Assembly: GCA_027019175.1 (NCBI GenBank)
Contig: JALUXB010000047.1
Coordinates: 1 to 36,505 of the forward strand
DNA length: 36,505 nucleotides
Source: Sulfurovum sp.
GTDB lineage: Bacteria > Campylobacterota > Campylobacteria > Campylobacterales > Sulfurovaceae
Direction of reading: 5' to 3'
The notes under the pieces are model-generated. The model was given only the letters and a program-made list of their open reading frames with translations. It did not search any database and had not been told where the DNA came from. The translations under genes and the position numbers were made by a program. Below, in pieces: positions 23,675 through 33,250 of the stretch (position 1 is its first letter; the number at the start of each line of letters is the position of its first letter).

Positions 23675-23715
23675 TTGACACAGATCAATATTTTTACCTT
23701 CATGCTTCCTATAAA
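23675..23715 (+). promoter_or_regulatory. Crp/Fnr-type box and promoter of the heme-copper operon
   Basis: TTGAC-ACAG-ATCAA (23675-23688) differs by one base from the FNR palindrome TTGAT-N4-ATCAA and is of the kind bound by Fnr/Dnr/Nnr-family regulators. A TATAAA -10 lies at 23710-23715, which would place transcription start near 23722 and the box centre 40-41 bp upstream, the classic class II activator position. There is no good -35, as expected for an activated promoter. A second inverted repeat, TGATTA-N5-TAATCA at 23641-23657, lies just upstream. The 209-bp gap between clpB and the operon otherwise holds only the clpB hairpin. Confidence 0.65.
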
Positions 23716-23749: not shown

Positions 23750-24343
23750 ATGACGTTTTCCAATTCACTGGAACTGCTCTCTTTTCACTGGGTTGTATAT
23801 ACCATTTACGCGTTTATGATCATTTCAATCGTGGCGTGGTTTGGGTACAATCTGGGACGAAAAGAGAAAGCTAAATCAATCGTACGCATACCTTTTTACG
23901 GCTATATGGCATTTTTGGTCATTATGGGGGTAGGACACCACATCTTTACCTATAATGCCATTCCATGGGTATCGCAGGATATTATGCGTCACAACATCAA
24001 GCCTGATGCACGCTACAACATAGAGGTAGACAATCACAAGTGGCGTCTGCCCAAACTTCCCATTGTCGTACAGTGTGGACAGACCATCGCATTTGATGTT
24101 ACCAGTGATGATTTGACATACGGTTTCGGTCTCTTTAGACAGGATCGTACGATGGTAATGCAGATGCAGGTCGATCCGGGTCATAACAATGATATCTACT
24201 GGACATTCAACCACAACGGTGATTTCGATCTGACATCTACGGAGTATTCCGGTCCGAAACAGTATGATGAAGAGGGCAATGACCTGATGTTCGTCAAACA
24301 CTTCATGAAAGTGGTCGGATGTGAAAAAGGAGGTAAACAATGA
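23750..24343 (+). CDS. CuA-less cytochrome oxidase subunit II-like protein
   Basis: 197 aa. Two N-terminal transmembrane helices (about 13-35 and 48-66) precede a periplasmic cupredoxin-like domain. The fold pattern follows heme-copper oxidase subunit II, but the CuA ligands are gone. In place of the CxExCG cluster is S163-T-E-Y-S167-G, and the upstream His position is Y124 in LTYGFGLF. The protein therefore should not carry CuA, suggesting electrons arrive directly at subunit I from quinol or another donor. Start ATG 23750 follows a perfect AGGAGGAGAG site. It overlaps subunit I by 4 bp (ATGA). Quinol oxidase and NO-reductase accessory subunits are both compatible. Confidence 0.75.
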   Translation: MTFSNSLELLSFHWVVYTIYAFMIISIVAWFGYNLGRKEKAKSIVRIPFYGYMAFLVIMGVGHHIFTYNAIPWVSQDIMRHNIKPDARYNIEVDNHKWRLPKLPIVVQCGQTIAFDVTSDDLTYGFGLFRQDRTMVMQMQVDPGHNNDIYWTFNHNGDFDLTSTEYSGPKQYDEEGNDLMFVKHFMKVVGCEKGGKQ

Positions 24344-26025
24344 GTTGGAAAGAAAACCTGGTAAGCGGGACGAATTTTGATCCCGACAGCCTTAATGCAC
24401 TACAGAAAGTGACGCTTAGAGCGGTTGTTATGGCCTTTCTCTTCTATGGGCTGGTTGCAATTGAGGGAATGATCATGCGTATGGTGGAAACAGGAAAAGA
24501 GGTTGCACCTATTCCGGAAATGTTCTTCCATCCTGACCACTTCTTTTCCATTATGACCGCACACCCTATTGTCGGTATTTTCGGGTCAACCTATCAGCTG
24601 GTCTTCGGCGCGTTTACCTTTTTGGTGCCATACCTGACAAAAAAGCCGCTTTACAGCATCAAGCTTGCCAACTGGACATGGGGGCTCATTACTGCTGGTA
24701 CGGCAATGGCATGGTTTGCTGCGTTTGCTTGGCACTATGCACCGCTTTACACGCTCTACTGGCCGCTGCCTGTCGATACAAGACAGTTCAGTGAAGTAGG
24801 GGGCATCGTATTCATCGTTGGAGTGGCACTTATTATGTTTGGAACGTTCGGGTTCATCTATAATATCTATGCGACTATATTCGCAAGAGTAGGGGTGCAC
24901 AAAGACAAAACGACCAAAGAGCTGCTTATCTCCGGTTTCGGTGTCGACGGAATGCTCAACCTCATGAACAAACTCAGAGGCAAGCCGCCATACTCCAAAG
25001 AGCCTGCACTGGCACTGCCGGTCGTTGCTATCTTCCGTGGTACGGTCGATACATTCCTCGATGCAGTCGTTATTCTCGGAGCGGGAATTTTAGTACTCAT
25101 CTATCTCATCGCCGACCTTGGCGGGCTGCACTGGGATATGAACGCCATCGATGCGCTGCTTTACAAGAACTGGTTCTGGTGGGGGCTTGACCTTGTTGCC
25201 GACGGTCTGGTACTCATCTATGTAGCGGGTTCATGGTACCTGCTTGCTACGCTCATTACCGGTCAGAAGCTCTTTATGGAAAACGTTGCGCGTGCTGCTT
25301 TGATGCTCGAACTGCTGGTTTCATGGATGGTATGGTCTCACCACCTGCTCTCAGACCAGCCGCAGCCTGAAATGATGAAGCTCATCTCAGGCGAGATGGT
25401 TACCGCATTCGAATTGCTCACACAGGGACTCGCACTCTTCATTACACTCGTAACACTCTGGAAGGCAAGACCGCTGAAGATGACAATGGAGCTCAAGTAC
25501 CTCCTTGGCGGTCTGGTAGGCTTTGGTCTGGCTGTACCGGCAGGGATCATCCAGGCAGATATGGGGCTTAACCGTGTACTGCACAATACACAGTGGATCA
25601 TCGGTGCGCACGTACACATCGCCATCATTGTAGGGCTTTACATGACACTCTACTCAGCGGTATATGTACTCTGGCCTATTGTCACCAACAACACCAAGCT
25701 CTACTCGCACAAGCTTTCCAACCTCCACTTCTGGCTCCACCTTATCGGGGGTATCGGTATGGGTGCTTTCATGGGGATGGCAGGGCTTGACGGTATGCTC
25801 AGACGTCACCTCTACGTGCATGGCGAATTCAACCCGCTGATGATTTTCGCCGCGATCTGTGGTACGATGCTGCTTGCGGCATGGGCGATTTTCCTCTACA
25901 ACATTGTAATGTCTGTAGGGATCAAGGGACTTGTCGGTATTTTCATGCCGGCAAAGGACCCTACGCCTTCATACGGCATAGACGAAGAATTGGAGCCGGC
26001 AGATGACCCGGCCTTTGCAAAGTAG
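24340..26025 (+). CDS. Divergent heme-copper subunit I, candidate nitric oxide reductase
   Basis: 561-aa, about 13-14 transmembrane helices, heme-copper oxidase superfamily. Heme ligands are present: H75 in MTAHPIVGIF (low-spin), and H424 and H426 in GAHVHIAI (high-spin and low-spin). The second-metal site keeps H334-H335 (WSHHLLSD). The helix that normally holds the third His and the cross-linked Tyr (GHPEVY) reads WWGLDLVADGLV instead. Aligned on the NorB pattern HLWVEG, His becomes D284 and Glu becomes D288. No oxidase Tyr is present, so O2 reduction by the usual mechanism is unlikely. An Asp replacing this His is what I recall for the gNOR type described in Campylobacterota. Regulation by an Fnr-like box fits. 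NO reduction is inference. Confidence 0.75.
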   Translation: MSWKENLVSGTNFDPDSLNALQKVTLRAVVMAFLFYGLVAIEGMIMRMVETGKEVAPIPEMFFHPDHFFSIMTAHPIVGIFGSTYQLVFGAFTFLVPYLTKKPLYSIKLANWTWGLITAGTAMAWFAAFAWHYAPLYTLYWPLPVDTRQFSEVGGIVFIVGVALIMFGTFGFIYNIYATIFARVGVHKDKTTKELLISGFGVDGMLNLMNKLRGKPPYSKEPALALPVVAIFRGTVDTFLDAVVILGAGILVLIYLIADLGGLHWDMNAIDALLYKNWFWWGLDLVADGLVLIYVAGSWYLLATLITGQKLFMENVARAALMLELLVSWMVWSHHLLSDQPQPEMMKLISGEMVTAFELLTQGLALFITLVTLWKARPLKMTMELKYLLGGLVGFGLAVPAGIIQADMGLNRVLHNTQWIIGAHVHIAIIVGLYMTLYSAVYVLWPIVTNNTKLYSHKLSNLHFWLHLIGGIGMGAFMGMAGLDGMLRRHLYVHGEFNPLMIFAAICGTMLLAAWAIFLYNIVMSVGIKGLVGIFMPAKDPTPSYGIDEELEPADDPAFAK

Positions 26026-26071
26026 TCTTGATACGGCCGGGGATTACCCCGGTCGCAACAAAGGAGAAACA

Positions 26072-26677
26072 TTGATACACCTTGAGCGTGTTGCACTTGA
26101 AATCAAAAACGTTGGTTTGTATGACCTTATTTTGCAGGACGTACAGCATATCGCAGGCAAAAAACGCCTCAGCGAAGATGAGATCATAGAGATCATCCAA
26201 ACCCATCCAGAGATTCTTGAAGCCTACAAGCAGCTCAACGTCGAGTACAACATCAGCAACATTCATATTCGCGATATTGATATTGAAGCGCTTGATGATG
26301 CGTGCAAAGAAGAGGCCAAAGCAGTCAATGACAACCTTGCAAGACTGCGGGAGATCGAGAAGTATACGCTTGACTTCGAGCAGAGTGCCACACTGGTCAT
26401 TATCTTTTCGGTAGAGTTCTTTGTGCTCTTTTCTGTGCAATACTTCATTGTTTTGCTTGACCTTAAAACCTGGCAGTGGTGGATTTACGGCTTTTTTGCA
26501 CTCTCTATTGTTGCAGCCTACATCTATGCCAAAAAAGAGCAGAAGAAATATGCGCACTTCAGTGCAGAGTATGAAACACTGTACGAAAAGACGCTGAAGA
26601 TGATAGACCGGCTCGAAGAAAACGGCTGTATCAAACGCGCTGACCTGATCATCGAAGAGTGTGAAGAGCATGTCTGA
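26072..26677 (+). CDS. Two-helix membrane protein with coiled coil, unknown function
   Basis: 201 aa if it starts at TTG 26072, which I prefer because AAGGAG stands 5 bp before it. An ATG at 26003 would overlap the preceding gene and lacks a ribosome site. The N-terminal 100 residues are soluble and acidic (RLSEDEIIEIIQTHPEIL), two transmembrane helices lie near residues 110-130 and 137-155, and a charged helical tail follows. The soluble part faces the cytoplasm by the positive-inside rule. It may be co-transcribed with the heme-copper operon (46 bp gap) and overlaps the next gene by 8 bp. I do not recognise the family. Confidence 0.7.
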   Translation: MIHLERVALEIKNVGLYDLILQDVQHIAGKKRLSEDEIIEIIQTHPEILEAYKQLNVEYNISNIHIRDIDIEALDDACKEEAKAVNDNLARLREIEKYTLDFEQSATLVIIFSVEFFVLFSVQYFIVLLDLKTWQWWIYGFFALSIVAAYIYAKKEQKKYAHFSAEYETLYEKTLKMIDRLEENGCIKRADLIIEECEEHV

Positions 26678-27173
26678 GCCTGTACGCATCTCCTACCGGT
26701 GGGATGCCCAGAATGTCAAACGTCTTTTTGACGCTTCCTACCGCTACCAGTTCGAACACTCGGCTAAACGCTACATCGGCTGGTTTTTCATCGCGCTGGC
26801 GCAGTTTGGTGTCGTAGCGGCAATGAAGCAGGGTGGTTTCGGACTGCTCATCTTCTCAACGATTGTCCTGTTTTACTGGTATTATGGTAAAAAGGCCATT
26901 GCAAAGTATCGTGCCAAAGCCTCCTTTGAAACATCCCCGTTCAAAAACAAAACCATTACTATGGAAGTGGACGACAACGGCTTTACCATCGATGCGCATG
27001 ATAAGAAGGTACACTGGAACTGGGATGATATTGACGAAATTATTCCTCTTGGCGAAGACATTATGCTATACAAACATCCATATTTTCACTACATACCGGC
27101 GAACGGTTTTGCTTCCATCGAGGAGAAGAGCCGCTTTAAAAGCATGGCAAGAGAACACGGGAAACTAAAGTAG
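26670..27173 (+). CDS. YcxB-like membrane protein
   Basis: 167 aa. Two transmembrane helices (about 37-52 and 56-74) are followed by a C-terminal beta-rich domain of about 85 residues reading ITMEVDDNGFTIDAHDKKVH, then WNWDDIDEIIPLGEDIMLY and HYIPANGFAS. This is the pattern of the YcxB-like domain (strand, HxxWsdI, strand, yiPkraf). Start ATG 26670 overlaps the previous gene by 8 bp. Its stop converges on the next minus-strand gene with a 9-bp overlap. The function of this family is unknown. Confidence 0.75.
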   Translation: MSEPVRISYRWDAQNVKRLFDASYRYQFEHSAKRYIGWFFIALAQFGVVAAMKQGGFGLLIFSTIVLFYWYYGKKAIAKYRAKASFETSPFKNKTITMEVDDNGFTIDAHDKKVHWNWDDIDEIIPLGEDIMLYKHPYFHYIPANGFASIEEKSRFKSMAREHGKLK

Positions 27174-31252: not shown

Positions 31253-33250
31253 ATGGCAAATAGTTTATTCTTTAATCAAGTCAAAGAAAATGATAATAAC
31301 AGAGAGATAATAAGGTTATTGGAACAATATGCACTAGATAATCCAACTGAACAGTTATATTTGATTACAGCACCTTTAAGTGAACAAAAGTATCAATATG
31401 AATATGAACATAATGCTCTTGTAATTCTATCTCCTAAACATAAAATAATTTTTTTAGATTTAAAAAACAATAAAGATGAATTTGAAGAATATTGCGAAGA
31501 TTTTATTGAAGATTTAAGTTCATTGTCTGATAAATATAACTATAAACAACATATTGGAAGACCTAGAAAATGGAAAAGTGAATTAATTTGCTATGAAGAA
31601 AATATACCAACAAACATTAATGATTTTTTAAGTAATCATGCAATTACTGATTCAAATTTAAGAAGAAAAGTTGAACTTTTAATATCACTTCTAATAGGTA
31701 GTATTAATGATATTAAAAAAGTTGGAGTAGATGCACCAGAAACACTTTTAGAAAAAGTCAAGAAAAATATTATTCTTTTTGATGGTGATCAAACAAGATT
31801 TATTTATAAGGATTTTCAGAAGAAAATAGTTTCAATACAAGGTTTATCAGGAACAGGCAAAACAGAGCTATTGTTGCATAAATTAAAAGAATTATATATC
31901 AAGGATGATGATACAAAAATATTTTTTACTTGTCATAATAAAACTTTAGCAAAGAATCTAAAAGATCGTATTCCTAAGTTTTTTGATTTTATGAAAGTTG
32001 AGAAACAGATTGAATGGAATGAACGATTATGGGTTAATATAGCTTGGGGTTCAGAAAAGTATCCAAATACAGGTATTTATAGCTATATTTGTGATTTTTA
32101 TAATATTCCATTTATGAGATATCGTTATGGTATAGGATATAAAGAAATTTTTACTGAAGCTTTAAAATATATTGATAAAATTAAAGATAATGATGAATTT
32201 AGGTATGCATTTGATTATGTTTTAATAGATGAAAGACAAGATTTTCCTAAAGAATTTTTTGAACTTTGTGAAAAAGTAACAAAGAAACAAGTATATATTG
32301 CAGGAGATATTTTCCAAGATATTTGGGACAATACTGGTGATGATGAACTGGAGGTTGATATTGTTTTAAATAGATGTTATAGAACAGATCCTCGTACATT
32401 AATGTTTGCTCATGCATTAGGTATGGGACTTTTTGAAGATAAAAAACTGAATTGGTTATCTGATGAACAATGGAAAGAAATAGGATATACAATTAAGAGA
32501 GAATCAGATAGAAAAATGTGTTTAACTAGAGATCCAATCAGGAGATTTGAAGATTTAGAACAAGAAGAAGTACCAAGTATGATAATAGAAAAACAAACTT
32601 CTATTACTCAAATAGTTAATCTCTTAAAAAAAATAAAAGATGAAAATCCAACAGTAGAACCTGATGATATAGCAATTATAATTGTAGATGACAATAAGAG
32701 TATTTATGAATTTATTGATAAGTTAGGCTATAGAATTTCTGAAAATTTAGGTTGGGAAGTGAATAGAGCACATGATACAAAATCTCAAGTAGATAATACA
32801 ATTTTTATATCTAACAGAAACAATGTTAAGGGATTAGAATTCCCATTTGTTATATGTTTGACTGGGAAAATTAAAGATGGGTATAGATATCGAAATAGTC
32901 TCTACACAATGTTAACAAGAAGTTTTATACAATCTTATTTATTAGTTACGAATGATGATGGTATAGAGATTCAGCAAAAAGGACTAGATATTATTAACTC
33001 GCAAAGATGTATTCAAACAACAGAACCAACAGACGAAGAAAAGGAGAACATTAGGCAAACTGTAATAAAAATGAAGGAAGAAAGAACTATATCTTATGAT
33101 GAATTTTTAAATAAAATTTTTGATACTCTGAATATTCCTCAAAATTGTAGAAAAAAACTAAAAAAAGGATTAATTGATTTTGAAATAGAAGAGTTCGACG
33201 AAGAACAGACAAAATACTATATTGAAAAAAATAGAAATTTTTGTAAATGA
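31253..33250 (+). CDS. SF1 (UvrD/Rep-like) helicase-family ATPase, AT-rich cassette gene 1
   Basis: 665 aa. Residues 1-195 are a domain I cannot assign (KHKIIFLDLKNN and HIGRPRKWKSELI stand out). The helicase core begins with Walker A G197-LSGTGKTE (Lys203), motif II VLIDERQDF (Asp326, Glu327; the DExQD form of superfamily 1), a motif III/IV-like CYRTDPRTLMFAHALG, motif V NVKGLEFPFVIC and motif VI MLTRSFIQSYLLV with the Arg finger. The helicase part is compact, lacking large 1B/2B insertions. Codon use is extremely AT-rich compared with every upstream gene, a sign of transfer. The stop overlaps the next start (ATGA). The layout suits a defence-type cassette, but no known system is recognised, so function is open. 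Confidence 0.85.
   Translation: MANSLFFNQVKENDNNREIIRLLEQYALDNPTEQLYLITAPLSEQKYQYEYEHNALVILSPKHKIIFLDLKNNKDEFEEYCEDFIEDLSSLSDKYNYKQHIGRPRKWKSELICYEENIPTNINDFLSNHAITDSNLRRKVELLISLLIGSINDIKKVGVDAPETLLEKVKKNIILFDGDQTRFIYKDFQKKIVSIQGLSGTGKTELLLHKLKELYIKDDDTKIFFTCHNKTLAKNLKDRIPKFFDFMKVEKQIEWNERLWVNIAWGSEKYPNTGIYSYICDFYNIPFMRYRYGIGYKEIFTEALKYIDKIKDNDEFRYAFDYVLIDERQDFPKEFFELCEKVTKKQVYIAGDIFQDIWDNTGDDELEVDIVLNRCYRTDPRTLMFAHALGMGLFEDKKLNWLSDEQWKEIGYTIKRESDRKMCLTRDPIRRFEDLEQEEVPSMIIEKQTSITQIVNLLKKIKDENPTVEPDDIAIIIVDDNKSIYEFIDKLGYRISENLGWEVNRAHDTKSQVDNTIFISNRNNVKGLEFPFVICLTGKIKDGYRYRNSLYTMLTRSFIQSYLLVTNDDGIEIQQKGLDIINSQRCIQTTEPTDEEKENIRQTVIKMKEERTISYDEFLNKIFDTLNIPQNCRKKLKKGLIDFEIEEFDEEQTKYYIEKNRNFCK

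Follow-up and report, generated by a model that had tools for sequence, protein, structure and literature searches.

A Sulfurovum locus for a probable gNOR-type nitric oxide reductase with a conserved aspartate pair at its active site

In a stretch of 36,505 nucleotides of Sulfurovum sp. DNA (assembly GCA_027019175.1, contig JALUXB010000047.1; the whole stretch is referred to here as the window), we found a locus that very probably encodes a two-subunit NO reductase of the gNOR (norGH) type and, in the same transcription direction, an accessory membrane protein or a pair of them. Judged by its sequence, the window protein is a member of the known gNOR family, and published descriptions match it. 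gNOR has been proposed as an NO reductase related to the B-family, with Sulfurimonas, Sulfurovum, Persephonella and Methylomirabilis as hosts, and the criteria by which it is recognised include the absence of a complete proton channel. It has been described as having Asp as the active-site residue at the Tyr position (Table A4) and a cupredoxin second subunit in Sulfurimonas, Sulfurovum and Persephonella (PMC8756737), and as a quinone-oxidising, non-electrogenic enzyme (PMC8906906). Whether gNOR conserves energy is disputed (no in PMC8756737 and PMC8906906; yes in PMC6349771), and in 2024 it was listed among the families that are proposed and not biochemically characterised (PMC11388526). The window protein resembles gNOR in its Asp at the Tyr position, its two-subunit organisation with a cupredoxin subunit II, its host group and its predicted quinol donor. 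We found no difference that would exclude the locus from the family; two of its features, a downstream accessory gene for a protein with two transmembrane (TM) helices and a conserved FNR/DNR-type site, do not appear in the gNOR literature that was searched.

The catalytic subunit I is encoded on the forward strand at 24340..26025 by a complete ORF of 561 amino acids with an ATG start. A profile search identified it as COX1/PF00115 (E 8e-50), and these are exactly the coordinates at which an earlier, sequence-only reading had placed a heme-copper subunit. The start of the gene overlaps the end of the subunit II gene by four bases (ATGA). In an AlphaFold model, the heme-copper fold extends across the whole subunit I chain (Foldseek E down to 1.7e-12; VIA Z ~30). 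The host assembly is 2.2 Mb, and its nearest named relatives are Sulfurovum genomes (99% identity for subunit I); the top matches of the protein are Sulfurovum and Sulfurimonas records with identities of up to 99%, and occurrence in these two genera is one of the marks of gNOR. When the sequences of solved structures were searched with subunit I, only distant cbb3 and ba3 matches were returned. Among plasmids, tblastn with the subunit I protein gave no match at 1e-5 and only weak oxidase matches at E 10, and no plasmid-borne gNOR was found.

Helix VI of subunit I has the sequence WWGLDLVADG. The codons for D284-L285-V286-A287-D288 (25189..25203, forward strand) put one Asp where the metal-ligand His would stand and another at the Tyr/Glu position, and the codons for H334-H335, the two metal-ligand His that are retained according to homologue conservation and profile alignment, lie at 25339..25344 on the same strand. 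We found that seven residues (H75, D284, D288, H334, H335, H424 and H426) are invariant in all 128 full-length Campylobacterota homologues, which range from 60 to 100% identity, and again in a 28-sequence alignment in which identity goes down to 60%. Because these residues are invariant across homologues, the odd helix VI is neither a sequencing error nor a lone odd copy. The sequence-only reading had claimed that the heme ligands H75, H424 and H426 and the H334-H335 pair are kept and that helix VI lacks the third metal-ligand His as well as the cross-linked Tyr, and both observations hold across this set. The strict conservation of both D284 and D288 across Campylobacterota, as it appears in these alignments, is new here.

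When the gNOR-type profile was aligned to the B-family with hhalign (E 8e-35, the best of its profile relations), the cross-linked Tyr was matched by D288, which is the replacement expected of gNOR, and the metal-ligand His by D284, and the register was unshifted from D271 onward. In the comparison with cNOR/qNOR (E 3e-7), hhalign placed D284 on H207 and D288 on E211, reproducing the His-to-D284 and Glu-to-D288 correspondence that had been read earlier from a NorB alignment. In the hhalign alignment to the A-family (E 1.4e-31), helix VI is aligned Gly-to-Gly, so that D284 is one residue off the His and the match of Asp to Tyr is shifted by one residue; one alignment made with HMMER to the ba3 oxidase of Aquifex likewise runs Gly-to-Gly with D284 one residue off. 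The i/i+4 spacing of the conserved Asp pair favours the register with D284 on His and D288 on Tyr over the register shifted by one residue. The AlphaFold model of subunit I has pLDDT values under 50 across residues 279-293, which is the helix VI region, and the geometry between D284 and H334/H335 is unreadable there.

The phylogeny comprised 16 gNOR-type sequences and references for the A-family, the B-family, cbb3, cNOR and qNOR together with one eNOR-like sequence. The 16 gNOR-type sequences group in a single clade with support of 100/100, which branches on a long stem and lies apart from every reference group; they are absent from the clade of c/qNOR and from that of the A-family, each of which has 100/100 support. 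Placement inside an oxidase clade had been named in advance as grounds for abandoning the NO reductase proposal; the sequences instead have a fully supported clade of their own. For the gNOR stem, a grouping on the B-family side has support of 63/46, and a grouping with c/qNOR and cbb3 has an AU p of 0.47.

The window enzyme shares its fold, heme ligands, HH pair and ba3-type cupredoxin subunit with the B-family ba3 oxygen reductases of Thermus and Aquifex; however, oxygen reductases are recognised by three metal-ligand His and a cross-linked Tyr, whereas here the third His has become D284, the Tyr has become D288, and CuA is absent. It resembles cNOR and qNOR (NorB) in its heme ligands, its HH pair, the acidic residue at the E211 position and the lack of Tyr. 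In contrast to these enzymes, which are recognised by an FeB site of three His and a Glu and by membership of the NorB clade, the window enzyme has Asp for the metal-ligand His207 (D284) and for E211 (D288), has no cytochrome c subunit and lies in a separate clade. The eNOR reference from the Thermus plasmid pHB5018b is similar in its B-family relation, its cupredoxin subunit and its replaced Tyr, but it keeps the third metal-ligand His and has Gln at the Tyr position, and its subunit II, unlike that of the window, keeps the CuA-type residues CNDYCGLGH. This eNOR-like subunit I of Thermus thermophilus (locus L138, 979-2661) is annotated as a cbb3 oxidase and has HFK for HFH at the heme ligand pair, and after its gene come genes for an Rrf2 regulator and a DUF542 protein.

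Subunit II (23750..24343, forward strand; 197 amino acids) has N-terminal TM helices followed by a ba3-type cupredoxin domain, and this domain matches ba3-type CuA domains both by profile (E 1.6e-8) and by fold. The locus has in this way the cupredoxin-type second subunit, instead of heme c, by which gNOR is recognised. A cytochrome c oxidase would be expected to carry CuA in subunit II; in subunit II and its relatives, however, the CuA ligands are gone, with the His of HGF replaced by Y124 and the Cys pair of CxEYC replaced by S163 and S167, the latter kept in >90% of relatives, and the aligned subunit II sequences contain no equivalent of the second CuA His. Loss of the CuA ligands would therefore remove the usual entry for electrons from cytochrome c, and it agrees with the prediction of quinol oxidation by gNOR (PMC8906906). 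The window protein is most likely a quinol-fed NO reductase.

Upstream of the subunit II start by 75 bp, at 23675..23688 on the forward strand, there is an FNR/DNR-type palindrome, TTGACACAGATCAA (TTGAC-N4-ATCAA), a candidate anaerobic or NO-responsive operator. TTGAT-N4-ATCAA is the FNR/DNR/NNR consensus. It is present at ≥9 of 10 positions in 74 of the 96 non-redundant gNOR upstream regions, as compared to 3.2 expected, and these sites sit mostly 65-80 bp before the start. The same site type, TTGACTTATGTCAA, precedes the first gene in this genome's nor/nir cluster by 90 bp. The sites before gNOR and before the nor/nir cluster support anaerobic or NO-dependent expression. The window contains two FNR/DNR-type palindromes where 0.15 are expected; the second, TTGATGGTGATCAA at 31779-31792, is probably a chance match because it lies inside a UvrD-like helicase gene.

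Subunit I is followed on the forward strand by a gene for an accessory membrane protein, a candidate assembly factor or extra gNOR subunit, at 26072..26677 (ORF 26003-26677), the conserved part of which begins at about TTG 26072 after AGGAG. The N-terminal half of the protein is soluble, two TM helices are predicted by eye from the sequence, and no family was found for it in Pfam or NCBIfam. The gene adjoins subunit I in every closer-clade locus long enough to show it, and its relatives are also found after subunit I in several more distant loci. Across 397 genomes, the gene was detected at E ≤1.5e-12 in 39, all of which carry gNOR and have the gene beside it, and there was no convincing match in the 350 genomes without gNOR. 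Three extra matches among the 397 genomes, with E from 2e-4 to 8e-4, were rejected as unconvincing. Eight of the 47 gNOR genomes are without the accessory gene; six of these belong to a group at 63-65% identity and two have fragmented genes. The next gene, at 26661..27173 on the forward strand, encodes a 170-amino-acid membrane protein that is weakly YcxB-like (Pfam YcxB E 0.0037, below the cut-off); it is kept in most closer-clade loci and has 30-66% identity in other species. The gNOR-linked accessory gene and the conserved FNR/DNR-type operator, both recognised by comparing loci, are new here. As a tentative proposal, Campylobacterota gNOR may be a larger assembly in which the co-inherited two-TM protein would serve as a dedicated extra subunit or metal-insertion factor for a binuclear site whose non-heme metal would have two His and two Asp as ligands, an arrangement not yet characterised in the heme-copper superfamily.

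A PF00115 search of the window assembly found two further subunit I genes, a cbb3 oxidase and a cNOR (norC-norB adjoining nirS). Their helix VI motifs, GHNAVAF in the cbb3 oxidase and HLWVE in the cNOR, differ from that of the window gene, which is therefore the genome's only candidate gNOR and its only heme-copper subunit I that is neither cbb3 nor cNOR. The nirS gene is split over the ends of contigs C13 and C20, where the C13 piece ends in 108 residues that recur at the C20 start, and the nor/nir cluster has thus been broken by assembly. For NosZ, no TIGR04246 match above the cut-off was found in the window genome, and the same model matches 125 relatives, including most same-genus genomes; Pfam PF18764, which matched no control genome, was set aside, and the statement on NosZ relies on TIGR04246. 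The missing NosZ may reflect a truncated denitrifier that ends at N2O, or an assembly gap.

At the level of the phylum, the gNOR gene is present in 47 of 397 Campylobacterota genomes. As raw counts, in which shared ancestry is included, nirS-like matches are found in 42 of the 47 gNOR genomes as compared to 34 of the 350 others, and norB (≥66% identity) in 41 of the 47 as compared to 33 of the 350. Four gNOR genomes (G125, G146, G229 and G272) have neither a nirS nor a norB match, so some hosts would use gNOR outside the nirS pathway and denitrification would not be its sole setting. G053, G057, G249, G304 and others carry a further NirS-like type that has diverged strongly, with 25-33% identity to NirS of the window genome, and in several Campylobacterota genomes this divergent gene adjoins norB. 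A second NorB-like protein of ~460 amino acids, with 36-41% identity to the window genome's cNorB, is present in G365, G129, G308 and others.

Taken together, these data make NO reduction the best-supported function that we infer for the window enzyme. The central proposal of the sequence-only reading, that this is a non-canonical NO reductase of the gNOR kind, is strengthened by the Asp at the Tyr position, the loss of CuA, the separate clade, the distribution alongside denitrification genes and the shared regulatory site type. Electrons would come from menaquinol, not from cytochrome c via CuA, and would go through the low-spin heme, ligated by H75/H426, to the high-spin heme, ligated by H424, and to a non-heme metal with H334, H335, D284 and probably D288 as its ligands. 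This metal is likely iron because its ligation by carboxylate is similar to that at the FeB site in c/qNOR. Two NO would be joined at the binuclear site to give N2O. The enzyme would work beside the cNOR, whose norCB genes adjoin nirS, and would help to clear the NO made by NirS; no nosZ was detected in the genome, which would leave N2O as the end product.

A reading of the enzyme as an unusual B-family-related terminal oxygen reductase that manages without the cross-linked Tyr would account for a fold and nearest profiles that are those of oxidases and for the ba3-type subunit II. We consider it highly improbable, since all 128 sequences have other residues in place of both the Tyr and the third metal-ligand His, CuA is lost, the protein lies outside every oxidase clade, the genome already carries a cbb3 oxidase, and the gene co-occurs with nirS and norB. 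It is also very unlikely that the Asp-rich site acts on some other small substrate, for example in NO dismutation or on nitrite-derived species: we know of no characterised equivalent of the dicarboxylate site, and NO as the substrate is itself a prediction, but it is NO reduction that the literature predicts for gNOR, and the distribution of the gene tracks NO-producing genes.

If the enzyme does reduce NO, it might do so mainly for protection, as in nitrate ammonifiers or under nitrosative stress, and not for respiration, which would be a different role with the same chemistry. The four gNOR genomes without nirS and norB matches, the cNOR already present in this genome and the description of gNOR as non-electrogenic (PMC8906906) all point in that direction; however, nirS-like genes occur in nine of ten gNOR genomes, and gNOR and the nor/nir cluster have a regulatory site type in common, so that a mainly protective role seems possible but rather unlikely. 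The protective and respiratory roles are compatible and not mutually exclusive.

gNOR has been predicted from genomes, and no purification is reported in the literature searched. With the window locus, a vent-type sulfur bacterium appears to carry this known, uncharacterised kind of NO reductase, with Asp where oxidases use His and Tyr. The family occurs widely among sulfur-oxidising Campylobacterota, with strict conservation of its acidic metal site, and in most of the genomes that have it a specific, unnamed membrane protein accompanies it, as does an operator of the anaerobic or NO type at most loci. The locus and its relatives provide a concrete gene set for the expression and testing of gNOR. 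The finding is relevant to the production of N2O at vents and at redox boundaries; in such places gNOR genes could be miscounted as oxidases.
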